The position numbers were made by a program, and so were the translations under genes. Positions 2,040 through 58,585 of a stretch of 64,000 bases of DNA are shown one piece after another. The DNA is taken from positions 567,501-631,500 of the forward strand of contig NW_027248392.1 in NCBI RefSeq assembly GCF_041260155.1, written 5' to 3'. Each line of letters starts with the position of its first letter. Position 1 is the stretch's first letter. The notes below the pieces were generated by a model that saw only the letters and a program-made list of their open reading frames with translations, was not told the origin of the DNA and did not search any database. The stretch is from Ptychodera flava. Taxonomy: Eukaryota > Hemichordata > Enteropneusta > Ptychoderidae.

Positions 2040-2969
2040 TCTTTGATATACGAGGCAGTAAGCAAAATAATATGTATTTGTCATGTTGTTATTTCCGTTG
2101 GAAATAAACTCCTAAAAAGTCACCCTTCGAGAACAATGCGCTTTGCTGTCGTTGATAATTCTTTTTTTTTTGCTTTCGTCGAAGTAATAAGGTCGACAGC
2201 GATAATCGCGTACCGTAAACTACCCGGGGGCCTGACTTTCGATAAATCAAATTTGCATTCCATTGTACTGAGCTAAAAATATCACATTGCCTTCGTGAAA
2301 CATTACGGCCACGGTTGCATGTTATAGAGAAAGAATCCGGTATAGCTGACAGGTATGTCTGCAAATTTATTCATTTCTTAGTCTTTTATCAACACGTGAG
2401 TTCAACACGTTTGAATGAATCAAACCGATTGGTAACTCTTGTACTTGAAATTGTAAAGACGTCCAGGAAAAATCAAAGCCAAAAGTTAAATAGTGTCCCT
2501 GGTAACAAATGAACCATAATTATGCGATTTTCAAAATTGTAAATTGTCACATGGTACGACTACTAGCAACAGTTCTCACTTCGAGTATAGTAAAGTATCT
2601 CCTTTTTGATAATCGTTCGCAAAAGCAACAGATATGTAAAAGTGCTCGTAAGAGAGTTTGATCACGTACAAGATTTATACAATGCAAGATGCGAGGTACA
2701 TAACTATGCCAAACTGATAAAGAATCATTCCTATAAAATCTTTAATATCGAGACAATGCTCATTGATATAATTTGCATAAATTAAAACTAATATATCTAA
2801 GATCATTTTAGTGTTAAAACGATTATGGAGACTACATTTAAGACGATTACAAGATAGCATGAATGGTAAGCTATGCTTACATGCCGGTTTAATGGCTATT
2901 TCTGTTACAGGTTCTACAGTTGCGAATTATAACAATAATTGGACCAATGCACCATTCCCTAGGGAATCT
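2040..2969. repeat. dispersed repeat, left part (split by foldback element)
   Basis: Scattered blocks here resemble 59.05-59.96 kb in the same order. Examples are the ACTGACAGGTACGTCT-like block near 2345 and the TTACATGCC...GTTTAA...AGTTGC block at 2878-2930, compared with 59890-59935. The paralogy resumes after the foldback element at 6290. It looks like an old, diverged dispersed repeat. No product is recognisable. Confidence 0.5.
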
Positions 2970-2998
2970 GTTAAGGTACGGTGGCCCAAAACTACCTG

Positions 2999-3830
2999 TT
3001 CTCCGCATTCAAAGTCTGCGTCGCAATCAAATGTTTTTCTCTCACATATGTCTCTGCATTCAAAGTCTGCGTCGCAATCAAATGTTTTTCTCTCACATAT
3101 GTCTCTGCATTCAAAGTCTGCGTCGCAATCAATTGTTTTTCTCTCACATATGTCTCCGCATTCAAAGTCTGCGTCGCAATCAAATGTTTTTCTCTCACAT
3201 AAGCTTATGTCTCCGCATTCAAAGTCTGCGTCGCAATCAATTGTTTTTCTCTCACATATGTCTCCGCATTCAAAGTCTGCGTCGCAATCAAATGTTTTTC
3301 TCTCACATATGTCTCCGCATTCAAAGTCTGCGTCGCAATCAAATGTTTTTCTCTCACATATGTCTCCGCATTCAAAGTCTGCGTCGCAATCAAATATTTT
3401 TCTCTCACATATGTCTCCGCATTCAAAGTCTGCCTCGCAATCAAATGTTTTTCTCTCACATATGTCTCCGCATTCAAAGTCTGCGTCGCAATCAAATGTT
3501 TTTCTCTCACACGTCTCCGCATTCAAAGTCTGCGTCGCAATCAAATGTTTTTCTCTCACATATATATCTCCGCATTCAAAGTCTGCGTCGCAATCAAATG
3601 TTTTTCTCTCACATATATCTCCGCATTCAAAGTCTGCGTCGCAATCAAATGTTTTTCTCTCACATATGTCTCCGCATTCAAAGTCTGCGTCGCATTCAAT
3701 TGTTTTTCTCTCACATATGTCTCCGCATTCAAAGTCTGCGTCGCAATCAAATGTTTTTCTCTCACATATGTCTCCGCATTCCAAGTCTGCGTCGCATTCA
3801 ATTGTTTTTCTCTCACATATGTCTCCGAGG
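2999..3830. repeat. 51-bp tandem array, left foldback arm
   Basis: About 16 head-to-tail copies of a 51-bp unit (core TCAAAGTCTGCGTCGCAATC, then TTTTTCTCTCACATATG). Single-base variants such as AATGTTT/AATTGTT alternate among units, and a few units carry a HindIII-like AAGCTTATG or a shortened spacer. Because 51 is divisible by 3, several frames on both strands stay open through the array. The long predicted proteins here are artefacts. Confidence 0.95.
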
Positions 3831-5754
3831 TATGCCTCAGTGTACGTTATTCCGCGAAGCATAATTTCTATCGAACAGCGCTCTCAGACGGTCGCTATTG
3901 ACAACGACGAACATTGTATCAAGTTATTTTCAATAGATTATCGATCGAAAATTTGTTTGGACGGGCCGGGCGCTCGTGTGTTGAGGTCACGTCATAAACA
4001 TTTCCACAATAACCCATATATTGACTTATACACTTAAATATCAACATTGAAGGTATCCGTTGGTTTCCTGTACTGAAATTAAATCGACGACAATTTTTTT
4101 AGTTTTGGTGATACTTTTACGTACGTTTCGGCACATTTTGGCGCACCTCGGCGTAGTTTGGCGCCATTGTGAACGGGGGGGGGGACTACACGCGAGTGAG
4201 CGAGACAACAATGTATCAATTTCGGACAAAAGGATATCGATCGATAACGTTCACTGCACGATTACAGTGGAGACTCTACGCCCGTTCGCCTCTGTTCTGT
4301 GTTATTCTTGCAGTTTACTGGGATTTTCATAGTTAATATTCGCCAAATTTGGTATAAATTACAACAACCTGACTGGTATTTGGTCTGTATAATTTAAGAG
4401 ACGCTAACCGATTAAAATGGGTCAATATTAGACCCTGATTCTGCATATGCAAACGCTGTAAGATCGCCATTTTATTGAGGGCAGGAGCAAAAATTCAGCG
4501 ATCGGAAAAAATAAAATGCAACTAAAACAAGTTTCGTCGAGAAATTCAAAAAACTAAAACGACAGCAATTTTGTATATATATCAAGGAAACACCGTGCCA
4601 CTTTTCACTATAATTGGTTCAGAATTGAGAAATTTGAACGAGCGATAGTTGTACGGTCTGTTCAGTACATTAAACGCAATTGTTTTCCATGGGAAATCGA
4701 GCAGAGTAGACACATCGTAAAATGAAAAATACATCTGAAAAAAACCGTTGGTTTAACTTATTCATTTCGCTGTTATTTTTTATAATATTTGGTATGACAC
4801 ATATCATGAAGGGTAACTAAAACTATGGTTTTATTTTTTTTAGTTTCCCTCTTTTTTATGAAATGACGAGTTGAAGATCGTTTTGCTGTTGACTGTGTTT
4901 TTACTTGATTTTGCATATGTCTCTTATCGCTTACGTATTTTTGGAATTCCTTGTGAAATTCTTCCCAAAATATTATAATTGTAAGGGCAGCATATACGGG
5001 AAATAGGACCTGTTGCTCTTTCATTAATATTTAGATGTGCAGCAAGGAAATACGGCGAAATTTTCAACATGACGCGGGAGGTGAAATTGACTCTCCGAAC
5101 GCGCACTCCACGTATGTGTGGCAAAAATTCGGGACGCTATATACCGTACAAAATGGGGCGCCTTTGGGCCGTAGTGCACTAGCGTCTCTTAAATTATACA
5201 GACCAAATACCAGTCAGGTTGTTGTAATTTATACCAAATTTTGGCGAATATTAACTATGAAAATCCCTGTAAACTGCAAGAATAACACAGAACAGAGGCG
5301 AACGGGCGTAGAGTCTCCACTGTAATCGTGCAGTGAACGTTATCGATCGATATCCTTTTGTCCGAAATTGATACATTGTTGTCTCGCTCACTCGCGTGTT
5401 GTCCCCCCCCCCCATTCACAATGGCGCCAAACTACGCCGAGGTGCGCCAAAATGTGCCGAAACGTACGTAAAAGTATCACCAAAACTAAAAAAATTGTCG
5501 TCGATTTAATTTCAGTACAGGAAACCAACGGATACCTTCAATGTTGATATTTAAGTGTATAAGTCAATATATGGGTTATTGTGGAAATGTTTATGACGTG
5601 ACCTCAACACACGGGCGCCGGCACAAGGCGTCCAAACAAATTTTCGATCGATAATCTATTGAAAATAACTTGATACAATGTTCGTCGTTGTCAATAGCGA
5701 CCGTCTGAGAGCGCTGTTCGATAGAAATTATGCTTCGCCACTGAGGCATACCTC

Positions 5755-6262
5755 GGAGACATATGTGAGAGAAAAACAATTGAATGCGACGCAGACTTGG
5801 AATGCGGAGACATATGTGAGAGAAAAACATTTGATTGCGACGCAGACTTTGAATGCGGAGACATATGTGAGAGAAAAACATTTGATTGCGACGCAGACTT
5901 TGAATGCGGAGACATAAGCTTATGTGAGAGAAAAACATTGATTGCGACGCAGACTTTGAATGCGGAGACATGTGTGAGAGAAAAACAATTGATTGCGACG
6001 CAGACTTTGAATGCAGAGACATATGTGAGAGAAAAACATTTGATTGCGACGCAGACTTTGAATGCAGAGACATATGTGAGAGAAAAACATTTGATTGCGA
6101 CGCAGACTTTGAATGCGGAGAACATTTGATTGCGACGCAGACTTTGAATGCGGAGACATATGTGAGAGAAAAACAATTGATTGCGACGCAGACTTTGAAT
6201 GCAGAGACATATGTGAGAGAAAAACATTTGATTGCGACGCAGACTTTGAATGCGGAGAACAG
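5755..6262. repeat. 51-bp tandem array, right foldback arm (inverted)
   Basis: About 10 copies of the same 51-bp unit in reverse orientation, mirroring 2999-3830. One unit boundary is collapsed near 6118, where GGAGAACATTTG skips part of a unit. The AAGCTTATG-bearing variant unit is present in both arms, so the arms share a common array and then lost or gained units. Confidence 0.92.
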
Positions 6263-6281
6263 GTAGTTTTGGGCCACCGTA

Positions 6282-6640
6282 GTTAAGGTTATCTTTATAA
6301 CTTTGACTTGTTTTTATCCCGTTTACAAAAGCTGTTTCATAATTGTGGCAAGTTTTTCCAACAAATATTCTCGTCATTATTCATCATTCATGAAGCTGTC
6401 AAAATAACATATGGAACAATGTTTGAGGTTTCGACACTTAAATCTAGTCTTGCTGTTTATAATTGTAATTTGTTCAGTGTTTAATATTGACATACAAAGC
6501 CAACAGTGCTGTCTAAATGTTTGGTCATCAAGAATTGGCAATTTAAAAATGCTTTGCCTTGAATTTCAGATTCATGAAGTGACGCTGGTCGCCGCCAATG
6601 TGAAACTTAGAACAGGAAGTGTATAAATCCGTATTAACCG
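6282..6640. repeat. dispersed repeat, right part after foldback insertion
   Basis: From about 6390 (AAGCTGTCAAAATAACATAT) to 6500 (TGTTTAATATTGACATAC) the sequence closely parallels 60090-60195, continuing the paralogy that was interrupted at 2969. This places the foldback element inside a pre-existing repeat. Confidence 0.6.
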
Positions 6641-8375: not shown

Positions 8376-30836
<22,461 letters not shown>

Positions 30837-31029: not shown

Positions 31030-31720
31030 TTCTAATTACAAAGCTAAGTAGACGTTCATCATTGTAATGATAAGGGCACATTAACCCGAACGGCAGCTGC
31101 AAGGAAAAAAAATTATATTCATGTTGTTATAGAAATTAAAAGGAAAAAAATCGCTATTTTTATGCTAGTAAGCAAAGTACGAAACCCCGGTCGAAATTTG
31201 CGACGGGCTTACTTCGAACTTACGACTCTAATATATATGACGCAAAGGCTCTACTTGTCAATACACTATTTCCAAAGTCGGCCATCTTCCTTTTGTAGAG
31301 GTTAGATAATCTTGAAAGTAAAACGATACAAACACATTTTAAATATTGGGCATAGATTCTATGATATCGTTACTTTTTTTTGCGATCACAGCACTATATG
31401 AAGACATACGATAGAATTAAATTAGACAAACGGTGATTTTCATACTTGTTGCACTTCTAGAGATAAATTAAGGTGGAGATGTATGATGCCAAAACAGTTT
31501 TTTCAAAGAAATATTTCTGATCAAAGATGACAAGGAAACCCCCTCATACTCTATATTTTCAAAAAGCAGAGACTCTAAAGTTTAGTATGATAGCAGTAGT
31601 TAACTCGAAAAATAAAGTGGGTGTAAACTTGTGGTAAAAAAAACAAACAATTGTTTTATTATTGATAAAAATTACTTAAGTCAAAAACTTGACACTATTT
31701 TCTGAAATGTAATATTTAAC
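31030..31720. other. interval between receptor gene and large transposon
   Basis: AT-rich, no exon or repeat recognised. It would contain the receptor 3' UTR, with an AATAAA at about 31609. Confidence 0.4.
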
Positions 31721-31937
31721 TTAAAGGGACATTAGCTGCATATTTTGACCTTATATTGTTGCAAACGAGTGGTTCATGATGTTGTTCTACTCATCGACTG
31801 ATGTCTGTAAACGGTCGCCCATTGACAACTTCCATACCGTTTGCGTATACTGTATAGACAAAGCTTGGGTCAGAGGTTAATGGTGGGCTACTTTTAACCT
31901 CAGAGTTAGCAAGGGTTGACCCGCGACCAGGCCATAG

Positions 31938-31989
31938 TGCGCATGCGCCGTGAATGTACAAAAAACTGAGACGTCATCGTCTGACGTCA
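31938..31989 (+). promoter_or_regulatory. NRF1-like and CRE-like sites before the transposase gene
   Basis: TGCGCATGCGCC (31938-31949) matches the NRF1 consensus YGCGCAYGCGCR, and TGACGTCA (31982-31989) is a perfect CRE palindrome. Both lie within 85 bp upstream of the ATG at 32021. Sites of the same two types, in mirrored order, precede the minus-strand gene at the other end of the element. Confidence 0.6.
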
Positions 31990-32020
31990 TGCACACGGAT
32001 AATGCATGTACTGCAATGCA

Positions 32021-32281
32021 ATGGCGACTGCCGAGAGTCCTGCGGATAGCACTCGTCAACGAAAGCGTTCTGGTCGCCCGTTTCTCAGTGATTCGGCTCG
32101 AAAGCGTTCAAAAGCTCAACGTTCTGCAAGTCGGATAAATATCTTTTCAGAATTTCAGCGTTGGAACGAAATTAAACGTTCATTGTCGTTGGAAACGCAC
32201 CGTCAAGTTGCAACATTTCTGATATCAGAACATGTGAACCCTAACAAAAAGGCAGAGGTACTAAGTACTCCACATATTCAG
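32021..32281 (+). CDS. transposase exon 1
   Basis: Eighty-seven codons from ATG 32021 to donor GTAGGT. Arg/Lys/Ser-rich N-terminus, then INIFSEFQRWNEIKRSLSLE and HRQVATFLISEHVNPNKKAE. It may be a DNA-binding or localisation region, but no zinc-finger pattern is visible. Confidence 0.7.
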
Positions 32282-35200
32282 GTAGGTCATCGCAACCCGA
32301 ACAAACATAATGAATATGTGTATTCTACGATGTATATAATATATATATATCTTGTGTACGTATGCCAGCGGACATCCATGGTTAGCTCAGCTGCCCAGTA
32401 GCGCGGTTTGTCGCTCGGTACATTTTGACATGGTAGCGAGACTCCGTGAATTTTGATGATGCTACATAAATACGATGTCTCCGACCCTATGTCGCGGGCA
32501 TCTTCAAAATTTACAGACCATCATGGGCGTTCATTTTCGGCCTCAGATGGTCTCCGCATTAGTGTCTTTACATCACGTACTGCATGGAGCTAGAAACGGA
32601 GTGACGTACTGCATGGAGCTAGAAACGGAGTGACTACATAGATAATGATACGAGCGGAACTTCAGAGGCTATAACTCGACAATGTATTCCATGATTTTCT
32701 GTGCATTTATGTTGTGTGTTTGATTTTACTAGTGGCTAGTTTTTATGTGTGTGAGTGTGTGTGTATTGAATTTGGAATGCTTTTGTCAATCCTCCATTCC
32801 TTATAAAGAAATGCAAATGCATTGATCAAACATTTTCTGTGCAGGTACTATAAACATCCAGATGTTGAAACAGAAAAGTCTAAGACTTTACATGAGAGCC
32901 AAGACAACGAAGGACAAGAAATTGCAGTGTCAAGAGGAAAAGGGTAATTCTTTTTTTTTTATTTTTGAATATTTTTGAAGTATTTGTAGATAATATTCAT
33001 GCAAGTATGCATGGAGCTAGAAACATTCAAAAAGCTGGCATTTTTGATTGTAGATTATGCAGATTACACTATGCATAAATAAACAAATGCGTTGATCACA
33101 AATTTTCAGTGCAGGAACTGCTCTTTTTAGCTCCATGGTACTATTAACATGCAAATTTTGAAACAGTAAAATCTAAGACTGTACATGACAGCCAACACAA
33201 CAGAGGACAAGAAATTGCAGTTTCAAGATAAAAAAGGCATTCTTTTTTCAGTTTAGATATACTTTTGAAGTATTTCTAGATAATGTAAGTGCCTGCATGC
33301 ATAGAACTTGATACCAAAAAGCACATTCAAGCTGACCCTGGTATGTTTGTTTGTATATTGTACAGATTATGCATAAATAAACAAATGCACCACAGATTTT
33401 TCTGTGCACTATAGACACTCAAAGACTACGCTTAGTTTGAACACAGTCCCTCTATCCACGAGGGACTGTGGTTTGAAAATAATTTAAAATCAGATTTGAA
33501 TTTTTTGCTAACACTTATATGTATTTGTTTCATTGCATGTGTTGAAGGTCTGATAAGCCAAGCCCTGCCACTCAAGCTTTTCCTGTCACATCAACCCCAT
33601 GGCAAGGCAGGTCTTCTGATGCACGGAAAACCAAGGAAACTCCATTTGTGTCAGAAATATCTTCAGTTGAGTCAGACAGGTAGATGCACAGGAATTACTA
33701 TGGCATTCATGTACTCGGCTTTGACTGATATGTTTACAAATGTTTGTCGTCTCTTTCTACAGTACTCTCATGCATTGTAGTTTTTCAGTAGTTGATTACA
33801 ATATGTCAATGGCTTTAAATGTTCTATAGCGTTTTCAGAATTATTGTTTTTTTACGCTCATGTTTTCCTTCTTACAGGGGTGCGTCAATATCTGGAATTG
33901 AGGAGCTCAGTGGTCAAGAGAAATCAACTGTGCAAGATCCACCTGTAGAGTCCGTGCAGAACTCACCCAAACCTATTCAAAGTGGAAGGTAAGCCTTTCT
34001 GCAGTCAAAAGCCAGTATTTACAGGTTGAAGAATTTAGTGTATATCATTTAAGATTATAATATGCTGTGCCTGAATCCATAAATATGATTAGCTGAAGAC
34101 TTGGTTCATATTTTCAGTAAGATGACCTGGGCCCTTGATTGTAAACAATCAACAAATTAAGACTGTGATTGGCCTCCGTAATCTCATGCAATGTATGGAA
34201 TTTGAAAAGTTCTTCAGGTCACTATTTTGGCACAATATCTGAATTCTTGCACAAATTACTATTTTGTGACAGTTCTAATTTGCACCATGCAATGGTTCCA
34301 AATGACAAATCATGGTTACATGATAAAAGCCAGGAACTAGCATAATTTACTCTAGGATGTTGAATGGTCGCTGTAGTTTTGTCATTCATAAATAAAAAGC
34401 ACCCTTCGTAAATTGGCTGATCGAACAGATTTGATAGCATTGTAAGAATTTTCTGTTACATTGTATATTACTTGCCTTGCCTAACAACTTGGTTTGTTTT
34501 GATTTCAACAGAACCTTTCTTTCTCTGGAAATGTTCAGTCTAATGTTCAGAGTGGCACATCTCAACATTTGCTGAAACCATGTATGCAATCTAAAGAAGA
34601 CACATCCAAGCTTGTTCAAAGTGAACGGTAATGTGTGCTTTCTCATCATTGTAACAGTAACTGTGACTAATAGAAACAAATTTAATGTTTTCATGTAGCT
34701 GGCTGCAGTATACTCAAGCTTCTTGTATGTACTTTGAAAGCACCCATCTGCCATGTCTCAGTTAATGGGGGATTGTGAATGCTTCATGTGTCTTAAAATA
34801 ATAATACACAGGATTTATGTCTAATTGAAACATGGTTACTACTTGTCAGACCTCATAACAGATCTGGTGACTGAACATGGCATACACCTTAGCCCTTGGA
34901 CTGACATTTTATTCCTATGGTTACAGTGGTGTACCAATTGCAAAACTGTTGGACTGACTCTTTTTAGAACACTCTATGTAAACAGTATTTACAGGCCTGA
35001 TACCTATATCTTAACAAGGCCTTCTGTTCTGATCTTTGTCTGTTAAAGGAATGCCCTGTAATCAGCCTGTAATTTTCTAGTGTGATATTTTGTTTATGCT
35101 ATTTTGTACATTGCGTAACTTACTCCTATACTACCTCAAACATGCATTTTCAAAGATATGGTTCAGTACATGTAACCGGTATGGCAAAGTATAATATGTT

Positions 35201-35480
35201 TTTTTTTTTTTGATTATTTTTATCACAGTCGTGTGAGATGTCCTAGAAGTTTTTCAGAGTCATTCTTGGACCCATTTGAGTAAGATTATTTTTCCAAATT
35301 TTCTCTGTCATCCTAGCCTATTTATCATCTTTGAAATGAATGTGCCTGTTTGTTTTATATTAAATACTTACTATTTTCATGAATAGAAAGGCCTGAGATC
35401 CCTTCTTCATTTTGCACTTTTTCCATTACATATAGATTGAGCATTGACATATCTGAGCCTGAAGTGAATTCAAGTGATAG

Positions 35481-35513
<33 letters not shown>

Positions 35514-38500
35514 GGACTATGAGCCAAGTTTTGATATGTCTATTTTGTAAGTAAATACTTTCATTTATATTGTTAATACTAAAGAACAATACCAGTTCCC
35601 AATTATGAAGTGTGTGCCCCTGACAAATCACTTGTTTGTAGTGCATTTGTAAATTACTAGAAAACACCTTTTTTCCCTGTTAGAGTTTTGTCTTCTATGT
35701 CACCTTCCTGAAAGGATAAATTAGACAACTGTTTGTCCTTTATCCCTATATTATGGGTTATCGTAAACATTTGCTATGACTACTGTCCAAGCTGTCATAA
35801 AGTCACCAGCAGTGTTTCAGTTGTTTTTCTTATACTATTTCTCAGGATTGATGGTGTAGAATTTTTTCCTGCCTTGAGTGATGATGAAGTTGTAGAAGAT
35901 GGTGGTACATACGATGACGATGAAGAAATCGAAGATGACATAGATGATATACAACTGCCAGGTCTACGAAGAGTTCTCACCGAGGAAGATGGAGCACGCC
36001 TTCTTGATGACAGAACATGTCTTGTGTTCCTGGAACAACTCATTATCTTAGGCAAACAAAGTATTCGCCGTATCTGTGCCGTCAAATCGTGTAATGGTGA
36101 GATTTCACCTACTTCATCGTTTGTTGGCTCAGCTTTGTATTTAAAGTGGGTAAGTCTGTACTATCAATGTATGCCTTTTTATACTTGCACATAGAAATAC
36201 TGTTGATGGCTTGTATTGAGTTCCACATATAATTGTCCATATATGTTCACCTTACACTAAGATAACTGTGGGCTTTGATAGACACAACAGCACCAGGTAG
36301 CGTCTTCCTTTCAATGTCTTGGTATGCCATACCGTAATAGGGGTGTTGTTATTTTTGACTAGCCTTAATATGTATTAATAGCATAGAAGGAAATGTGACA
36401 CTTTCAGCTGGTACACTACAGTGATGCATGCAGAAAGTAAATTGGTATTTTTACCGACTTCCTTTACATCAGTACTGATTGTGGATGATATGTGCTGTTA
36501 ATGACATGTCCAGCTGGCCATCTTGAATATGAATGGTGTTCCCAACCAATCCTCAAAAGGAGGCTCCATAGTGGTGATTTGTTGACAGCTGCTGCCATTC
36601 TACTCTCAGGAAATAATTATGGCAAAATTAAGTTTTTAGCTGATATTTTATCATTAAAATTTGTAGTCCGTCAACATATTACAAGATCCAAAGTACATAC
36701 CTTCTGCCTGCTATAGATGAATATTGGAGACAGCATCAACTAGAGGTATTAAACTCATTTGACGGCCAAGAACTTGTGATACTAGGTAACTGTTGTTTAA
36801 TTCAGATCAAGTTTTGTTCCTTTAATTTTGCCATTGTAATTTTTTCCACCATTTTAATAAAGTGCAAGCCCTTGTTCACAGTTGATGAGTAATATATCTT
36901 TAGGAACACAATTTATTCTGGTCAGAAGCAGTGCTTGGGTACACTTTTATATGTTTGACCAATATCTTTTCTGCTCTTTGTCGAAAGGGGATGGACGAAT
37001 GGATTCACCAGGGTTCTGTGCCCAATACTGTTCATACACAATGATGGAAGACACCAGCAAGAAGATCCTGTCTATAATAACAATGGACAAGAGGGCCACA
37101 GACAAGAAATCAACGAATCTAGAAAAGGCATGCTTTCAGTTAAGTCTTGATGCACTACAAGAAAAGGGTCTACAAATAAAAGAAGTGGTCACCGACGCCC
37201 ATATGCAGGTTACATCACTGATGAGTAAGGACACCATTAATGTTTCAGCTTTGACATGTAGACATGTTTTTGTGAAGTAATCATTGTGCAAGTAGTAATT
37301 ACAGCTATGGTCATGGAGATATTGTTTCTGAAAAAATACTGATTACACATGATTTATGTATGAAACTATCATGATATTAGTGAATTTTTATTGTTCAAGT
37401 ATCAGTTTAAATAGAACTTCCTTGCTTGGTATTACAGAAATTTATAAAATCATACATTCCCTATCTTACAGAGAAGTCATATCCTGGCATCAAGCACTCA
37501 CATGATATGTGGCATGCGGCCAAGAATTTATGCAAAAAGATTGTGAAGGTTTGTAAGTTTTTCATATGAAACCAATGCCTTTCCAGTGATGTAGATGTTG
37601 GCAGACAGCAAAAGCAATCAGGTCTGAGCAAAAATGTGCTGGCTGTCAAAAATTTTACAGTGTTCATTAAACATTTGTAACATTTTCTGGCGACAGCAGG
37701 TTTTGACACAACTTGTAACAACCTATGATTTTACATGTGCTGCTTGCAACAAATTTTTCTACGTCCATGCTCTCTGTTTTATTGTTTTAATTTGTAATGT
37801 GTAGATTTGTAATCATCAATCTCTGGGCATTACACTAAGATGATATCACACATGACAATTTTAGTGCACAATCTGTGTAAAAACAAGTCTACTTTTCTTT
37901 CAGCCTGCTGTAAAGACATACAATAACATTGCACATCATTCGGTGTCTTCAACATCCTGAGCCACTCACATTTATTACATCATTAATTTGTCTCACCTAA
38001 ACCATTCGGATATGTACAGCTGACATACATGATAAGCTGCATATAACATGTATGAACAAACATGACAAATCAGTGTTGTTTATTACATTTCTTCATGTTT
38101 TTTAAATCATTAGGCTGGGCAAAATAAAGAATGCAAAGGGCTGCTGAAATGGACTTCACACATTGTAAATCATTTTTGGTATAGCTGCCAAAAAGCATCT
38201 GGCATTGACGAATTTCTGGTAGGTTAAAATGATTATTGATATTGTTTCATTGTTGATGTTTCTTTGCTCCTATTTTGAGTGTATTACACGGCCTGTTTCA
38301 GATATTAGTGTGTGGTTAGACCTGAATAAAGTCTACATATTTCAATTTGTTTTAAAAAGAACAGTAGCTAGCACACAATAATGCAAGCTAATCTATAGCT
38401 TCCAGAGCAATGCCCACTCAATCTGTTCCGTAGTCTGTGTGAACGTCCGTGTCAAGATAACTGGATATATGGCACGCCACACTCGCTTTTGGAGAGTCGT

Positions 38501-40975
38501 ACTCCACTACAAAAATCCCCACCGGTTTAGTGCAAACAGAAATTCTGAGTACAGGTATCAAGTCAAGGGAAGGACCTTTCATATGTCTTTTTGAGGAGTT
38601 ATCTCATTTGAACAAGGATTCAAACCTGCTGAGCTATCATGAGGTACAGCAAGGAAGTTTGCCTAGCAGACCAGTAGCGTACACTAGGCTGTTCGATCAA
38701 TGTTATGACCGCTGTAGGATCAATAATGGTGTCATGTTCGGTCTCTCGACATCTCCCTTTGCTTAGCCATGCGATTTTCCAGTCAAACACTGCGAAACCC
38801 GCTTGTTTTCTCTATTTGACTATTTCTTGCCATGTATTACAAGAAGAAGTTAGCAAGTGGTGGTATCAAGAGTGGGTCGTGGGTCAAGTCTGTCGCTGGG
38901 CTGGTACATTGTTGGACTGGATTTTCTTATATCAGTGTAGGTCAACACGGCGACCATCTTCCCTATGGATACAACAGCATCTCCCATGTCCTGCTCTGGC
39001 TTGCTGATCATGGTCTTGAGTGTAATTTTTGTGGGGCATTGTGCTTGTTGCTGGCCTATTAAAATACATGTATATATACAATGTTGATCATTTAAGTGAT
39101 GTTTTATTGCTGTACTGCACATACCATTGTGTACAACCAATCTGAACATCTGCGATCAAAGCCCATTTTGTTCACCATGACTGCGTGTAGGAGCTCGTAT
39201 CTCAGCATTTGTCAGAGAAATGCTTCTATTTCCTATCCAGTACTCTGATAAGTCTTCTGATGGAGACATTTTTAACATACTACCACTTTGTTGTTGTTTT
39301 ACAGGAGATCTGGTGTGGTGTTATTCACCATACAATAAATGAACACACTTGGGGGTTGTGTATGGTAGAAGTAACAGAATGCAGTGTGACCATGGACCCC
39401 TTGCAGAACTAAGTGATGATAGAGAGTACCTCCAGAAGAACAGCACTGCGCACCTGGCTCTTCGGAATATTGTCTTTGACAAGGCTTTCCTGAAGAAGAT
39501 TCACTACCTCTTAAATTACAGGTAAGCATCATTCAATATCTAGATTGTCCACAGTACTTTGGTAATCTTACCTGTGCTTGTTTTGTTTATTTGTATCTTC
39601 AATAAGTGAATCGATGAACTGCTATGGCGATGTTTTTAAATGTGATAACCCAAAATAGTAAAGACCTTAGGTGATGCAGGTTGGTAAGTATGGTGTGTAG
39701 ACTTTCTGACAAGGTTCTGAACGTTAGGGACACAAATAAGTCAGTCGGAGATGCAGCCTTACATGTATTTTTGCTGGTGTGTGTAGAATGGGAGGATTGA
39801 GGTAATTTGGTATGTAAAGTTAACATTTTACTGTGTTTTTCTTGTGCAGATCAACAGCTGATTTGGAGTCATTCCAGCAGCATATTTTGATGTATGCCTC
39901 TAAAAGGAATGCATATACACCACCAGCATATAGAGCCAGGAACATCTTAGCAGCATTAGACCATAATGCACACCATGACAGGGGAATGAGCCAAAATAAG
40001 GAGGGTCAAGATATGTAAGTCTGAAAAAACTTTATTGTAACATCATCAAACGTAAATGCAGACTAGAACGTATTTATAAATACAGATGTTTTGTGGTGCT
40101 GCTGTGTTCTTCAAATTAAAGGCCCTTTTGGCAATCTCTAGGGTTATGTCTTTCCAATTTTAAATTTGTCTCCCACTGTTCATTACATTATGCAAAAGAC
40201 ATCAAACACAAACCAGATGGATTCATTGGTCATCATTTGGTACTGATAAGCATTTATGCATACACATGTAGTTATCTCAGGTCATTTTATATGGTTGCAA
40301 GGAAAAATGTACAAAGAAATAGCATATTTAAATACAAGGGAGGTATTCCTTACATACTGATGTTATGAAAGTATAATTATTGTGATAGTTGTGCAGTCAA
40401 TAGACCCTCAAGCGTCAGTGTGGTGTAAGTTTGTAAAGTTGGCATTTTGTTGAAATTATGTCAAAGTTGTTTCTACTCTAAAAGCCAACATAATAATGAG
40501 AAACAAGGCAATAAGTAGTCCTTTCATAGCAAGAATAAAAATGGCATTTGGTGCATGAAAAATTTTGAACAGCTTATTATCTAATCTTTGCATTGTTGTA
40601 TATGAACCCTGGTACTGATGGCAAGGGATAGAAAAAAGAAAGAGGAATTCAGTATGATATTGCTAAGCAGTAAGGTTGGTTTTCAGAATAACAGTGGAAT
40701 TAATATCTTCATTTATACGTCACAGATACCACAGGAAATACAACAAAAAGAGCAGCAGATGGTCTGCAGCTCCCGTTAAAGCGCCTAAAACCTACCCATA
40801 CATTGCACCATTGAAGAAACTAATTTTGGACAAGCGAATACAGGATACACACGGAATGCAGAAAAGAAAAGAGCTTGAGGCGGATGACCCAAGAAGAATT
40901 TCACTTCATCTTGCACCAACTGCACCACCATCCACTGCCACTCTAGTTCAAGAGAAAATATCCCGAAGAAATTAA
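32021..40975 (+). CDS. multi-exon DDE transposase-like gene (degraded copy)
   Basis: About 15 exons. Exon 1 (32021-32281) starts MATAESPADSTRQRKRSGRP, basic and Ser-rich. Exons 2-8 (to 36149) are largely acidic and disordered, with an Asp run at 35480-35510, and end in SALYLKW. Exons 9-13 hold the catalytic core: CPAGHLEYEWCSQPILKR, GDGRMDSPGFCAQYC, VVTDAHMQ, HSHDMWHAAKNL, INEHTW. Exons 14-15 encode RSTADLESFQQHILMYASKR and YHRKYNKKSSRWSAAPVK. I recognise this as a family found in many marine animals and fishes. The D (GDG), D (TDAH, a DxxH motif) and E (NEHTW) form a plausible DDE triad. Exon 1/2 and 4/5 phases do not match, exon 9 lacks an AG acceptor and has a 1-bp shift, and exon 13 has a 1-bp shift at a G run. 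It is either decaying or mis-assembled. Confidence 0.8.
32845..32943 (+). CDS. transposase exon 2
   Basis: YYKHPDVETEKSKTLHESQ and onward, donor GGGTAATT in phase 2. A degraded duplicate of the exon and its flanks lies about 290 bp downstream (33112-33230) and contains stops. The phase with exon 1 does not match using visible sites. Confidence 0.5.
33442..33470. mobile_element. 29-bp hairpin with 7-bp flanking direct repeats
   Basis: CACAGTCCCTC, a 7-bp loop, then GAGGGACTGTG, flanked on both sides by GTTTGAA (33435-33441 and 33471-33477). It has the form of a minimal inverted-repeat insertion with a target duplication, in a transposase intron. Confidence 0.6.
33548..33988 (+). CDS. transposase exons 3 and 4 (disordered region)
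   Basis: Exon 3 is 33548-33679 (SDKPSPATQAFPVTSTPW through SSVESDR) and exon 4 is 33878-33988 (RGASISGIEELSGQEKS through SGR). Both junctions are phase 2 with clear GT-AG signals. Ser/Pro/Glu-rich, low complexity, presumably a linker. Confidence 0.65.
34513..35546 (+). CDS. transposase exons 5-7 (acidic linker)
   Basis: Exon 5 (about 34513-34628) repeats a P/S-x-LVQSER theme already seen as PIQSGR at the end of exon 4, but needs a frame change at its acceptor. Exon 6 (35229-35279) reads RVRCPRSFSESFLDPF. Exon 7 (35436-35546) contains ten consecutive Asp codons (GAT)n followed by EDYEPSFDMS. Confidence 0.55.
35846..36149 (+). CDS. transposase exon 8
   Basis: 101 codons, acceptor TCTCAG, donor GTAAGT. 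An acidic start (DDDEEIEDDIDD) leads into RTCLVFLEQLIILGKQSI, CAVKSCNGEI and SALYLKW, the usual entry to the catalytic part of this family. CxVxSCxGxI with the following CPxGH could form a zinc site. Confidence 0.78.
36504..38218 (+). CDS. transposase exons 9-12 (catalytic core, first and second Asp)
   Basis: Exon 9 (~36504-36785) has CPAGHLEYEWCSQPILKR, AAAILLSGNNYGKI and, after a 1-bp shift near 36680, YLLPAIDEYWRQHQLE. Exon 10 (36988-37224) has GDGRMDSPGFCAQYC and VVTDAHMQ. Exon 11 (37472-37548) has KHSHDMWHAAKNLCKKI. Exon 12 (38114-38218) has WTSHIVNHFWYSCQ. Exon 10-12 borders have consensus splice sites and matching phases. The first two catalytic acids are proposed in GDG and TDAH. Confidence 0.8.
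39305..39521 (+). CDS. transposase exon 13 (catalytic Glu), frameshifted at a G run
   Basis: GVIHHTINEHTWG contains the proposed catalytic Glu. The following CDHGPLAELSDDREYLQK is in another frame, reached by one extra base in the GGGGG run at 39351-39355. Both borders have consensus splice sites, and the exon length then fits phase 0 in and phase 2 out. Confidence 0.75.
39850..40975 (+). CDS. transposase exons 14-15 (C-terminus)
   Basis: Exon 14 (39850-40014) reads STADLESFQQHILMYASKR and ARNILAALDHNAHHDRG. Exon 15 (40726-40975) reads YHRKYNKKSSRWSAAPVK and YPYIAPLKKLILDKR, ending at TAA. Both are intact and strongly typical of the family. Confidence 0.85.
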
Positions 40976-41012
40976 ATTCAAAGTTGACTGACACTGAAAA
41001 CCAAAATGAACA

Positions 41013-41276
41013 CTATTCTAGTCTAGACGGAACAAACCCAGTATATCGGCTGTAGGGGTCAGGATATCTGTCCCGAATTGCCCAGACACAACAACTGGGA
41101 ATCACCATACGGTTCCCTGTTCCAAGACGGCCATGTTGCCACATGACATATTGTCTGTAAGCAGCATGTCTGTTGGCATCATTGTTGTCATCACTGTCGT
41201 CTGTGGCAAATATCTCTCTTCTGTATATCCTCATCATGGCTAGTACTGCTTCGTTTAATATCAGCACATCAAATTC
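41013..41276 (-). CDS. ballast gene exon 4: P2X7-like core
   Basis: Acceptor TATTAG, 87 codons and a TAG. HAAYRQYVMWQHGRLGTGN and VIPSCCVWAIRDRYPDPYSR are the most diagnostic P2X7-ballast motifs, and this exon is intact. Its stop is 37 bp from the transposase stop on the other strand, so the two 3' UTRs must overlap. Confidence 0.88.
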   Translation of the reverse strand, partial: EFDVLILNEAVLAMMRIYRREIFATDDSDDNNDANRHAAYRQYVMWQHGRLGTGNRMVIPSCCVWAIRDRYPDPYSRYTGFVPSRLE

Positions 41277-44200
41277 CTAATAAAGAAATGAAAAAATAAC
41301 ATGTCCGTGTCAAGAAAACAAGAACAGACACCATCAGTATATAACAATTGGCAATTTTTTCCCTTCAGCTGGATTACCCACCCACATACATAGTATCAAC
41401 ACACACCCCTCCCTATATTTTGGTGGATAGCACCAGTTCATGTGTTCTTTTGTTCCAGTCAATTCTCCTGTGTGCGACAGTGAGTGATATCTCATGTAGC
41501 TTAGGTCGCCCCTCTGACAATCATATCAGTAGAGCAGAGATTGACCAATTACCCTAACTGAAACATTCAACTAGCAGCATGCTAGGAGCTATGCAGTTAA
41601 GTACAATCATTGTGCGCATAAATTTTGGAATTTTAAAAGATGTTTTTCACCTAGCAGTGTTTTGCTTTGTTTTTTTCTTTCCAATTTTTGACAATGACAA
41701 TCTAAATAAAACAGTTACCTGGAGTTCATTCAGTCCTTTTTATACAGACCCTCAAATCATCAGGTAGTTGCAGTTGTCAGTTTGCCAAATCAACTCAAAA
41801 TAGCAACAATTCAGTGTACAAAGTACACTAGTTTTGATATGAATTATGTTTTTATGGTCAAAAATTGATATCCATACAGTTTCATGTTATGAAGCTGTAA
41901 CTTACATGTCATATATCACAGAAGAGGTGTATCGATTGCTGAGTTGTTTTTATAATTCAGAGTGAACTCTGTAAGGCTGTATCTCTTCAGAAATGTTTAT
42001 GTCAGATTCACTTTCAAATTGTTACAGTTTATCTGAACAGCATATGTGGTAAGATTATGTCTGTATTTCAGTCAAAGGTGTAAGACTAGTACTGTACTGT
42101 TGTCAACATTTACACAGGTTCTCAAGATTACTAAATCTGAAAATATCAATTTATATTAGTCCTTGACAACCAGTTCCCTATTACTTTTTAGTCAACCAGT
42201 CAAATTAGTGAGTTACAACAGAATTTCAGCTGAAGATTTGTTAAATACGTACTGGTGTTCTTGATTTACAGTTTTGTGGATGCATTTCACAACAAACCCG
42301 CTCAACTTCTGTTGGCATCTGCCGACATCTTGTGCATACACACCAGTCAGGAGGTGGGGTCGTTGGGGGGGGGGGGATGGTATCCCTGCTGTTCTGGTAC
42401 AACCGGAAAAACTAGGTCATGCACCAGCCCAGGATCACGATCCACCATCCTTTTCACCAAAGTTCGTAACTCTGGAGCGTCCATGCTTTCAACAGCTGCC
42501 TATACAGAAACAAAATTTTGAGTAGTTTACAATGAGAATGAATGAGCTTTATGTTTATGGATTATTGAATTATATTTTATATCAATATGAAAAATATATA
42601 AACATGTTTATACTTTACCTCTAGTCTTTGGCTTCTTTGATGTAAGCGGGCTACAGCATCACCTATCGAAACTGATAGAGCCCCCCCTACTAGTGCCTCG
42701 CCCACGTCTTCCTCTTGACCTTGTAGCTCCTCTCCCCCTTATGCTAGTGCCCCTGCCTCTTCCTCTACCTCTGCCACGACCCCGACTTCTATGTCCTCGT
42801 TGACCTCTGTCTCTTGAACTTGAACTTGACTCATCAGTTGAACTTGCCTGAAATAATGACATATTAGATTTACCGTCTGCTACTGAATGCTAAAATTTTT
42901 CAAAAAAATCAAAGGAAAACAAAGACTGACAAATTTTCAGTGGCCATGTCATTATAGGGTAAATTGACATTTCAATTGTTTTTGGTTTTTGCTAGAGAAA
43001 TTAGCCTTGCACTATAAATTGAAGTAATTTACCTGATTTAGCCCTTCGCACTGGCAAAAGACTATGAAAACATTCAATTCCAAAAGGAGGATGGGACATT
43101 GACAAGGCTTGTTATAATCAGTGTTCTCCCCAGAGCTATTTATTATAGAGTGGTGGCCGCCACTCTATAATTTTTGGTAAACAATAGGAACTCATTACCA
43201 TAACAATTACATTTATTGTTATGCAAATTAGCCGCTACTCTATCAGAAAATCCTGGGGAGATCACTGTATAATTGATGTAAATAATGCCAATCCTGCCCT
43301 GAACGTGACCTTCAGGTATAGAAATAGCAGATTTTTTGCCAGAGTCTGACAGATTTTTAAACAGGCTCGTCATGCCGTTGAAGGACAGGCTGCAAAACAT
43401 AAACTCTTGTTTTTAACATGTAAGGAATTTTACCATGATGAATCCATAATTCTGTCATTCGGTAGGCTGAATATAAGAATAATTGGGGTCTGATGGCTTT
43501 TTACATCGCTAGTTCAAGAAATTTTGTCAAATCGGTTGATCTAGTTACGACCATGGAGCTAAAATGTACCATGATACAACTTTCGCAAACATTTTCTGAA
43601 ACCACTCAAACCTTTTCTTTGTTCATCATCTTCAAACCATGGACGTACCATGATCAAGCTTAGCTTCAAACAAATGTTGTTTTCACGGTTCGCTCATGAA
43701 CAGTTTATCTACCCTCCATGAGTTTATAGAGCAATAAAATTTATAACAAAGACGTCGATCAAACGTTACATTTTTTCGTACGCTGGATTTTTGGAAATAA
43801 TTCAAGAACAACGCTATCACAGCTAGCTAGCCCTGGGTACGACGCTGTGTGTTCCGCTACAGCTAATCGCCCCGCTCACCACAGCTGTAGCGGAACACAC
43901 AGCATCGTATGCAGGGCTAACAGCTAGTAAACTTGGCCAAATTCAGATTGAGGCCGTCCTCAACACTGTATTATGAACTGTATTGCATGAAAAAGAACGT
44001 TAGCTTTATCGTTGGCGATCGGTTGTAGCGTTGTGATTGCAAGCATGCGGGTATCGCCATTCAATCACATCGACTTCCTGTGTAATAATGTTTACACTTC
44101 TGGCGTTCATTAGCTATTGTTTCGACTTCGCGTGTGTACCGGTAATGATACATTGCGAAAGTGCGTAACTTCTATCGATCAAAATTACGATCATTATGAT

Positions 44201-44524
44201 GCTCGAAAAAAGTTTTGCTGGTAGTTTTTATACTAGCGATTCCACTTTCTGCTGTAATTGTTCAAGAAAAAAATATATGTCAGAAATCACCTCGCTTCTA
44301 CGGTGTTTGGAGAAATACACAAACGAGACATAAGCATAGACTGCCAGTCTGCAGAACGGAAAAGTCATTTTGCCGGTACCGGGATGTCATCGTTGTTGTT
44401 GTTGTCTTACTTTTAGATAAGTTTCTTTATTCTCTGATCGATGCAAGTCAATGCGGTTACGATTTTCATGGACTATTTATTATTGAAAAGAACAACTTGT
44501 ATTTGTACTTACCTCGTAATCCAT
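41013..44524 (-). CDS. RG-rich protein with P2X7-type cytoplasmic ballast domain
   Basis: Four exons on the minus strand: 44513-44524 (MDYE), 42619-42847, 42253-42499 and 41013-41276, about 249 residues. The first part is Ser-rich, then an RG/RGG-type stretch (HRSRGRGRGRGRGRG), usual in RNA- or DNA-binding tails. The rest matches the P2X7 receptor intracellular domain: DWCVCTRCRQMPTEVERVCC, then HAAYRQYVMWQHGRLGTGN and MVIPSCCVWAIRDRYPDP, with its conserved Cys/His zinc ligands. There are no membrane segments and no P2X channel. In P2X7 this domain binds zinc and guanine nucleotide. Here its role is unknown, possibly an accessory factor of the transposon. Exon 2 has 7 G where 6 keep frame, exon 3 has 12 C where 11 keep frame. 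With those single changes all phases are 0. This is either homopolymer miscalling or recent mutation. Confidence 0.82.
42253..42499 (-). CDS. ballast gene exon 3: Cys-rich zinc site
   Basis: Acceptor TGTATAG, donor GTACGT. It reads APELRTLVKRMVDRDPGLVH, a Pro run, then PPDWCVCTRCRQMPTEVER and VCCEMHPQNC. The frame changes across the 12-base C run (42365-42376 on the plus strand, as G). Eleven would restore one frame and the exon phase. Confidence 0.8.
42619..42847 (-). CDS. ballast gene exon 2: Ser-rich and RG-rich region
   Basis: Acceptor TATTTCAG, donor GTAAAG. ASSTDESSSSSRDRGQRG leads into GRGRGRGRGRG and ends IGDAVARLHQRSQRLE. The frame changes across a 7-G run (42681-42687). Six would restore it. 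Confidence 0.75.
43119..43267. mobile_element. hAT-type MITE
   Basis: CAGTGTTCTCCCCAG at the left and CTGGGGAGATCACTG at the right are inverted ends. TATAAT is repeated on both sides (43113-43118, 43268-43273), part of a hAT-like duplication. Inside is a further palindrome around GTGGCCGCCAC. 149 bp, non-coding, in intron 1 of the ballast gene. Confidence 0.75.
43828..43919. mobile_element. GC-rich hairpin (TAGCCCTG...CAGGGCTA)
   Basis: A 92-bp near-perfect hairpin with arms containing GCTGTGTGTTCCGCTACAGC. It shares its CAGGGCT end and CTGTGTGTT core with the hairpins at 48814 and 49147, so it is probably one small MITE family. Confidence 0.65.
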
Positions 44525-44579
44525 TGTGCTTTGTAAATGGCTCGAGGTCAAGGAGATTACGGGCTTGCGAATTCAGGCT

Positions 44580-44610
44580 TACGCATGCGCACTCCTGTCG
44601 ACTGACGTAA
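44580..44610 (-). promoter_or_regulatory. NRF1-like and CRE-like sites before the ballast gene
   Basis: On the minus strand TGCGCATGCGTA (44580-44591) and TTACGTCA (44603-44610) lie 56-86 bp upstream of the ATG at 44524. Arrangement and distance mirror the transposase promoter at the other end. No TATA box. Confidence 0.55.
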
Positions 44611-44838
44611 TTACAGTCTGTGTAGTTCTTAAGCGCGCTGTTCAAACATGGCGACTTGTGCAAATCGCGGCGATGACCGAACGAAGATTAAACGGCGGCG
44701 TATGCCTCATTTGGGTAAATTCAAACACTCTTATAATGATACATTGACTTTATTGAAGTTCCCGGTCACATTCGAGTAAATAGTTTTGGGTTTTTTAAAT
44801 CGAAAAAATGTCAAAAGATACAAATAATGTCCCTTTAA

Positions 44839-47170
<2,332 letters not shown>

Positions 47171-55000: not shown

Positions 55001-56375
55001 CACAAAGTGTTAACAATATCCCATAATAACATGCAAGAGACTTCAGGCTTCCTCTGTTCTTGACTTCTGGGGATCTCCAGTAAGCATAATTATTTTTATA
55101 TGTAAAACATAGACTCGCTTATTGAAATCTTTCACGCAACGAGATATTCTGATGGCCAACGTTTGATCGATCTTCCTATTCGAAAGAGTCCTTTTATTTG
55201 ATTTGTTTTTCGGGTGCCGTGCCAATTTTCATTGCGATAACGGCAGTCATGTCGAATCTCTTCAAAGACAGCAATCATCACGTGTCTAGCAACAGATTAC
55301 AATGCTTTAGTTTCGATAAGACCAAAAGGGCAATAGGGCATAGCGAGTAACAATACTACGCTACTAGAACCATCCGCTATGATTTACTATATATGTGATT
55401 GTTGGTAATTCAGTTTCAACGAGGAACATATTTTTCATTCTACTGACCACAAACACTGTCTTATACAAAGTAAGATTCACAGAAATTTCATAAAGAGTGC
55501 TCAAACAGCCATTCATGGCAAATGTCCCTACTTAAGACCGATTAGCCGTGTGTCAAGGCTTAACAAGTCCTGACCTCACATAAAATCACTCAAAGGACTT
55601 CAGTAGGGCATGCTGCAGATGACCTGTGATCATTGAATACACACAAAATGTCCTTATGTGCCGTGTGGGCAGTTTTGTGGTGTATTCTTGGGCTACATAG
55701 TCATTCATATGAATAAACTTCGGAGCTGCAGTTGCGAAGACCATTACTAAGGGCTTCTGCGGAAGGTGTAAAATCTGAAGAAAATATATTCTCAGCTACA
55801 GGAAAATTCGCAATAGTCAACCCCTTTGAAAACACCTCCTGTCTGAAGAGAGTGTCTAGACCAGATTGTACGCCATATTGTACATGTAAAGCTTCCTAAG
55901 GAGGCTCATACGCATGCACATCTTTTATTTGGGCAAAGACGGAGTCTAAGAAAATTGATTTAGTGACCATTCCAGTGCACCTTAAATGGTAGGTGAGGGG
56001 CGCTTTGTTTCGAACGCAACATTATTTTGGTGTACAGCTTTACGTAATATTAATGAAAACGGTTAAACGATGACTTTGTTGCTACCATGCAGCCGTTTAA
56101 AACTGCAGTAAGAGTGAACGGAAGCAAAGAAAGCTTGCGTTCCGCTAAATGATCAAAATCGTTCTTGCGGACCTTTCCATAAACTTTGTTTGGTGTGTTA
56201 AGTAAGCAAAGACCGTCCCTAGAATAACCAGTTTTGCAATACAACAAAAAACAAGCCTGATACCTATCCCTAAATCACCGCCCATTATCCCCGTCATTTT
56301 GACTCAAAAATGTCATGTCCTTACGCTTCAAGATTCTACACAAATCGCAAGCATGTATACAAGCGATACAAATAT
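52071..56375. other. intergenic, no gene seen
   Basis: No exon with splice support and no recognisable protein. It contains a short (GGTTA)n tract at 53596-53626 and a GA-rich stretch near 54650-54710. Confidence 0.5.
53596..53626. repeat. (TTAGG)n pentanucleotide tract
   Basis: Six tandem GGTTA units. TTAGG is the telomere repeat of many arthropods, but six internal units are ordinary for a microsatellite and do not indicate a telomere. Confidence 0.9.
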
Positions 56376-57252
56376 TAGATATTATTCCCTGATATTTTTC
56401 TTCGTTCAGCGAAGGAAAATACGACTGACGTAATGACCGTGTCACCACGAGTCGAAGACGAGTGGTGACACGGTCATTACGTCACGAGTATTTTCCGAGC
56501 TAAACGAAGAAACATATTAGGGAATAATATACTTATCACATGCACAAGCCAAGAATTCGTTATTTTTTGCAAAATAAAATAAGTTTTCCATGACGATTCC
56601 CCCGCGTTTAAACTTTTGAACTACTTTAAGAATAATATCAGTACGCCGTGCACAAGTTGTCAATCATTTCCAGTCGTCCGTCGTGTCCGTTAGCGCTCAC
56701 GTTCGTTCGTGTGTGGAGCAAATGATAGCTCTCGGTCTACACGTAGGTTACCTTCCGCAAAGTTATACTCTATTTCGAAGATAGCATAGTCCTAGAAATT
56801 TATCACAGACGAAGATACGCTATTTTTCAGGAACAAATATCGACTGAATCTCGACGGCGCGAACACTGTAAACGTCGCGCCTGACCCTGTTTGCAATGCG
56901 TACCGAACCCATGGTATACGCGACCAGCTTCGAGTTCGTTGTTTCCGCAAATTATTCATGTAATTCCTTTGGAATATACAGGCGGTACACTCTTGTGTTT
57001 ACATTGTTCGGATTACCAATGTCGTAGTCTGTGAAAATATCGATTTCATTACATGACTTTTGATCGTGGAAGAAACATCGGCCGCCATGCTGTTTGTTTA
57101 CATATTTACGAGCACACCAAAGATCGACAAAAAAGGTCCGAAGCACCAAAATTGATGACATAGACGCGGGTGGTCGTGACGTAGAACGACCAGAGAATAA
57201 ATCCCGTATTTTTTGTTCGGAGACGACAAACTTGGCTTTTGCATGTGATCAA
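56376..57252. mobile_element. composite hairpin-headed element, copy 2
   Basis: Second copy of the 25281-26155 unit in the same orientation: hairpin head to about 56531, then TTATCACATGCACAAGCCAA (56533) through a TTGGCTTTTGCATGTGAT end. Substitutions and small indels are scattered. Flanking sequence is unrelated, supporting transposition rather than segmental duplication. Confidence 0.8.
56952..57161 (-). CDS. 69-codon ORF in element copy 2
   Basis: Counterpart of 25853-26062, starting MSSILVLRTFFVDLWCARKY, open along its full length with five replacements and no indel. Function unknown. No promoter or splice context identified. Confidence 0.3.
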   Translation of the reverse strand: MSSILVLRTFFVDLWCARKYVNKQHGGRCFFHDQKSCNEIDIFTDYDIGNPNNVNTRVYRLYIPKELHE

Positions 57253-58585
57253 TACCTATAATATCATCAGGTATACTCTGCCATCACTACGTCCGACCAG
57301 CCCAAACCTTGTTTCTTTTAATGTGGCTTAAAGAGGACATGCAGTGTGTGTACATTTGCTCAAAACAACATGTCGGGAAGGATAAGACATCCCTTAAACT
57401 ACTTTTCAATAATCATCTTTCAACAACACGTGCACTCCACAAAAAGACACCACTGTAGCCCCTCATTTCAATAATGACCACCACGACATCAGTGATATTA
57501 AAATTTCTGCAATAATACAAATCAATAAATTAGATGATCTCTTCCGGAAACAGATTGAATCTCTGTGAACCCAGAAATTAAATACACTTTCACTCGTTGG
57601 CTTGCACATCCACTTAACATTCAAATAAATTTCGGACAGGATAAACAGCCGCTCAACTGCCTATACGCACGCCAGATTCCAAATGCCCTGTTGCACTGGT
57701 TTTCTTTCTTACTTACATGTGTATTTGAAGCATTTATTATTCAGTGCATTCTCTATATTTTGAATTATTTAGTGCACCTGAAGAAGCTATAGTTTTGGAG
57801 TTGTGTGTTACGTTTTGACCATACAACCCGGTGTGGTGCTTCAACCAAGTTCACTTATCTCATGCCACTCCAATCTTCACTAGGATGTCATTTACTTCGA
57901 ATCTCTTCAGAGTTGCACTTTCACGCAAGTACATCCATTCTGATGATAGACATGGCATTTAGAGTCGTTGACTACTCGGTAAAATTGTTTTACTTATTAT
58001 ATTTTAGCGCCTGGCAAGTCATGACATGGTCCTTAAACTCATATTGTGGTCAATATTTCTTGCATAAGTGTGAAACACAAAATAAATATAAACCATGGCT
58101 TTGATAACTAAATACCTTCCAGCATTAAATCAATGCCTTGTTAGATTTGTGATACTCATACTTATCTATTTTTCATCAACTTTTTCGTCTTTTTGACCAA
58201 TCGATATTTCTTATTATAATAGACACATTTCTTGTCACATTCACTAGGTATCTCTTTCATCAATGTTTTCGTCTAAATGTTTTATATCTCAATGGCTTAC
58301 TATAGAAATATTTCCTGTAACGTTCACTGGTTTCATAATTTTTATGACACATCTATGCGGCCGTTTATAGAATTAACTACCTCTAAAGCAATAAACGTAT
58401 TTCAAAGGACTGCTGTGACCATAGACTGAATATGCAAGCGAAACATTCTCAAGGGTCGATTTCTGTATTTTGTTGAGTACGATTTGCTATAATAATGAGT
58501 TCCATTCGATATAAAGACAAGCACGAAAGAGGTCATAGTTCAAAAGGAACTGCCAACGTCGTAATGATAGTAAAGCTGTGTTTTG
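57253..58585. other. intergenic, no gene seen
   Basis: AT-rich. Several short frames but none with coding character or splice partners. Confidence 0.4.

Follow-up and report, generated by a model that had tools for sequence, protein, structure and literature searches.

The window analysed here is the whole 64-kb stretch of DNA, and it contains an element of 13,110 bp (31725-44834) that lies between two copies of TTAA, read at the left end (31721..31724) and the right end (44835..44838) and assigned to neither strand. The element holds two convergent genes: a DDE-type transposase gene on the + strand, modelled as 15 exons, and a three-exon gene on the - strand that encodes a P2X7-ballast protein, referred to below as KolX. 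The stop codons of the two genes are 37 bp apart, with the + strand stop ending at 40975 and the - strand stop at 41013-41015. The initial annotation had recognized two convergent multi-exon genes with this spacing inside a TTAA-flanked span of 31721..44838. Genes, spacing and flanks are borne out, with the qualifications that the span takes in both TTAA copies, that neither gene is an uninterrupted frame and that exons 2-7 (E2-E7) of the transposase gene are tentative.

Several other features occur in the window. Upstream of the element (9400-29400, + strand) lie exons that encode several Ig domains as well as a tyrosine-kinase-like domain, along with a weak match to FN3; they perhaps belong to one gene. 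The kinase-like domain has HRY (HRYLAAKH) where HRD is expected and NFS where DFG is expected, and may thus belong to a pseudokinase receptor. Tandem arrays of 51 bp are found in inverted arrangement at 2880-6310, where the inverted arms 3969-4350 and 5237-5619 are 98-99% complementary. A direct repeat (25277-26154 and 56374-57254) is 94.7% identical over 882 aligned positions; one of its ends includes 153 positions in inverted arrangement, and it is perhaps another mobile element. Searches of the window with Rfam (gathering thresholds) and a tRNA scan gave no matches.

Borders and terminal inverted repeats

The left terminal inverted repeat (31725..31756, + strand) begins with AGGGACATTA, and the right terminal inverted repeat (44803..44834, - strand) finishes with TAATGTCCCT, so that the arrangement TTAA/AGGGACATTA at 31721 and TAATGTCCCT/TTAA ending at 44838 reported in the initial annotation is present, with imperfect inverted ends and AG...CT termini. 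When the two ends are anchored on TTAA, 25 of the 32 terminal positions pair. Among the 89,693 TTAA pairs compared in the window, only 2 score higher (32/32), and both fall inside an inverted repeat at 4.0-5.6 kb that is unrelated to the element. When the window was shuffled 40 times, the top-scoring pair of each shuffle reached 19-23. The ungapped inverted arms (31719-31765 and 44794-44840) are 47 nt in length and 77% complementary. An exact match of TTAA plus 10 nucleotides is by itself unexceptional: the window has five pairs of this kind, of which three lie in the 4.0-5.6 kb inverted repeat. Likewise, plain local alignment of the end regions gives an inverted match of 31, which is equalled by the best of 200 shuffled comparisons (median 20, 95th percentile 25; run against the unreversed right end). 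The inverted ends stand out because of their position at TTAA.

Two further observations concern the end regions and the noncoding part of the element. TGCGCA, TGACGT and ATGGCGAC are found in the same + strand order near both ends (31938-32028 and 44586-44655), in an arrangement that we take to resemble a housekeeping promoter block; a promoter block common to both ends was rejected because the direct alignment of the end regions is not above chance. A hairpin with 37-nt arms, 92% complementary, and an 18-nt loop is located at 43828-43919, upstream of the KolX gene, and 14-mers sampled from it have no other occurrence in the window.

The transposase and KolX genes

The first ATG of the transposase gene is 296 bp inside the left end. 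It opens E1 (32021..32281), which supplies 87 codons of a basic N-terminal region with no Pfam match. The tentative exons E2-E4 (32845-32943, 33548-33679 and 33878-33988) and E5-E7 (34512-34627, 35229-35279 and 35436-35546) rest on GT/AG sites and open frames. In the model, the phases do not agree between E1 and E2 or between E4 and E5, and the whole of E1-E7 is tentative. A 112-nt stretch that includes the tentative E2 is duplicated 293 bp downstream with 83% identity (32844-33248). The remaining exons, E8 (35846..36149), E9 (36504..36785), E10 (36988..37224), E11 (37472..37548), E12 (38114..38218), E13 (39305..39521), E14 (39850..40014) and E15 (40726..40975, with the stop codon TAA at its end), agree in phase except at two frame breaks. 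One of these is near 36660 in E9, which also has TG where its AG acceptor is expected, and the other is at a G5 run at 39351 in E13. All transposase exons are on the + strand.

The spliced core contains, in order, GDGRMDSPG and VVTDAH in E10, with the putative first two catalytic Asp residues, DMWH in E11, and INEHTW in E13, with the putative catalytic Glu. This arrangement, by motif order alone, fits the Kolobok transposase signature, a DDE triad with C/DxxH between the second D and the E, as described in the available part of PMC9587614. Another feature of the superfamily is an H2CH zinc finger located between C/DxxH and the final E. Pfam matches to the joined core are all below the cut-off (Mutator, 0.0045; MULE, 0.0051; Transposase_mut, 0.0064; DDE_Tnp_ISL3, 0.029), as is a weak match to IS256 (1.2e-4), a family akin to MuDR. 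The Mutator-type and IS256 matches fall on the E10 stretch. Single transposase exons match no transposase family, and a comparison of the core with solved structures returns no match up to E=1. No THAP domain is detected in the 19 stretches scanned, where the N-terminal exons are tentative, and a THAP signature search within exons, which cannot cross introns, is also negative.

The KolX gene consists of exon 1 (42619..42847), exon 2 (42253..42499) and exon 3 (41013..41276), all on the - strand. Exon 1 is RG-rich, has an in-frame ATG just upstream at 42862 and is interrupted by a frame break at a 7-base G/C run (42681); no upstream coding exon is found using strict GT[AG]AG donors. Exon 2 carries the first six zinc-cluster cysteines and a frame break at a 12-base G/C run (42365), and exon 3 carries the last two cysteines (PSCC) and the stop codon TAG. 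The ballast family PF20478 matches the joined protein at 1.2e-32 over residues 45-163; taken singly, exon 3 gives 7e-21 and a stretch of exon 2 gives 5.2e-5. The joined protein also matches P2X7 structures at 8.6e-19. By sequence, this is a KolX-type ballast protein with conserved cysteines: in the alignment with rat P2X7 (6u9v), every one of the eight cysteines that make up the three clusters has its counterpart, and R546-H547 and R578 of the rat protein are kept. In contrast to P2X7, no channel part is found, and at the GDP-binding site V and D take the place of R574 and K583; the zinc and GDP roles of the ballast residues are described in the available part of PMC7016195. The RG-rich N-terminal part of the protein suggests nucleic-acid binding.

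Pattern searches for relatives of the two genes gave two stretches in viral contigs for the transposase, and 22 stretches in viral contigs and 81 in prokaryote genome contigs for KolX, none of which was confirmed. This is expected for an animal gene.

Probable Kolobok affinity and alternative explanations

We consider the element, with a probability of roughly 0.9, to be a full-length copy of a Kol0-type DNA transposon in the Kolobok superfamily. Its unity is well supported by the ends and by a known gene pair, and the proposal that both genes are carried by one TTAA-duplicating DNA transposon, and that the gene for the ballast protein belongs to the transposon, is upheld. The initial annotation was not aware of a described two-gene element of this kind, but Kol0 Kolobok elements that encode a DDE transposase together with KolX have already been reported (Kojima and Bao, 2022; PMC9587614, available in part). 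According to the same partial text, KolX resembles residues 476-595 of human P2X7 and has the ballast fold, P2X7 originated when a P2X4-like gene fused with KolX, and Nanor is akin to KolX. In searches of open-licence papers, PMC9587614 was the only one found to join KolX, the ballast domain and transposons.

The element resembles Kol0 (Kolobok-1_XT type) in its DDE transposase, its KolX ballast fold, the TTAA target-site copies on both sides and its termini, where the 5'-RR/YY-3' form given for Kolobok ends (PMC9587614, in part) is present as AG...CT. A second group for comparison is provided by the frog XKol elements, for which the accessible portion of PMC6004289 reports 10 full-length copies with AG ends, lengths of 6,763-13,907 bp and flanks of TTAA in 19 of 20 cases and ATAA in one; the frog copies are presumed there to be active. 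The ends and TTAA copies here are alike, and 13.1 kb is an ordinary length among these elements. The frog transposases among those listed are, however, each encoded by one uninterrupted frame of about 2.1-2.6 kb, and most of them have THAP motifs; a THAP domain is usual in Kolobok transposases (same source, in part). The transposase gene here is split by introns, and no THAP domain is detected in the stretches scanned. The initial remark that intron-rich genes are unusual agrees with the frog loci. The only departures found are the intron-rich transposase gene and, tentatively, the failure to detect a THAP domain. The text of PMC9587614, as far as available, yields no statement on the exon structure of Kol0 or on the orientation of KolX, and no report of intron-rich Kol0 elements was found in the open-licence literature, a body that lies apart from Repbase Reports.

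Three other explanations were weighed and rejected on the evidence that follows. The many introns would suit a pair of host genes, or a transposase and KolX that became domesticated, lying by chance between two unrelated Kolobok-type MITE ends; frog Kolobok transposases are often domesticated (PMC6004289, in part), and no second copy of the element exists within the 64-kb window. Against this arrangement, which we regard as very unlikely, matching ends are placed at TTAA, the first ATG is 296 bp inside the left end, the scanned stretches inside the element contain no further family and the two genes are the known Kol0 pair. The frame breaks, if real, would also be unexpected in a host gene under selection.

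TTAA copies would also flank a member of piggyBac, the other TTAA-duplicating superfamily, and a KolX-like protein occurs in a few piggyBac families, although these proteins are without most of the seven cysteines (PMC9587614, in part), which are kept here. Together with ends that begin with AG, the Kolobok form, the DMWH motif in the transposase, and no match to any Pfam piggyBac family (DDE domain) in the joined core or the stretches given, this makes a piggyBac origin highly improbable. The chance that the element is of the KolobokP type is negligible. KolobokP elements are Kolobok transposons that have two genes, with the second on the complementary strand (PMC9587614, in part), and long terminal direct repeats. 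Such repeats (about 450 or 660 bp) are absent here by end comparison: direct alignment of the first 576 bp with the last 534 bp, which spans a 450-bp repeat whole and a 660-bp repeat in part, scores 25, identical to the shuffled 95th percentile, and none of the 20 direct-repeat families listed, out of 59, joins the two ends of the element. Moreover, the second gene encodes the PF20478 ballast protein rather than a His-Me finger nuclease, a family absent from the 19 stretches scanned.

State of the copy and the proposed role of KolX

Across the two genes of this Kol0-type element, the frame is broken at four places, and the splice acceptor of E9 is missing. Three of the four breaks are at G/C runs of 5, 7 and 12, and the fourth is at AAAATTT. 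Four G/C runs of at least 5 occur in the 11 stretches of the element that were compared (2,366 bp), and three of these coincide with breaks; the seven A/T runs in these stretches coincide with none. The comparison set of 11 host stretches (2,797 bp), hand-picked from open frames of the neighbouring Ig/kinase region, has 11 A/T runs but lacks G/C runs of this length, and is thus unfit as a control for errors at G/C runs. Decay and homopolymer errors in the assembly are both possible causes of the breaks. The broken reading frames make it probable that the copy is inactive, unless they are due to errors in the assembly.

In an intact copy, the AG...CT inverted ends would be bound by the DDE transposase, which would excise the element and place it at a TTAA site, with duplication of these four bases. 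The convergent KolX gene would act as an accessory gene for a small zinc-cluster protein of the ballast fold. Given its RG-rich N-terminus, this protein most likely assists transposition and binds either nucleic acid or the transposase. KolX is counted among accessory proteins in PMC9587614. We infer both the mobility of the element and the accessory role of KolX.

The main claim is already published and the added value of this locus is modest. It provides an independently read, complete-ended example of the kind of transposon proposed as the source of the P2X7 receptor tail. Of the ballast features, this transposon copy has the zinc cysteines but not all of the GDP site. A bolder reading, which we hold to be rather doubtful, is that the element represents an intron-rich, THAP-less sublineage of Kol0 in which the transposase has an obligate partner in KolX, an RG-tailed zinc-cluster protein with the structural cysteines but only part of the GDP site, which would bind nucleic acid. 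If this were true, the ancestral role of the ballast domain of P2X7 would be the handling of DNA or RNA, not nucleotide sensing.
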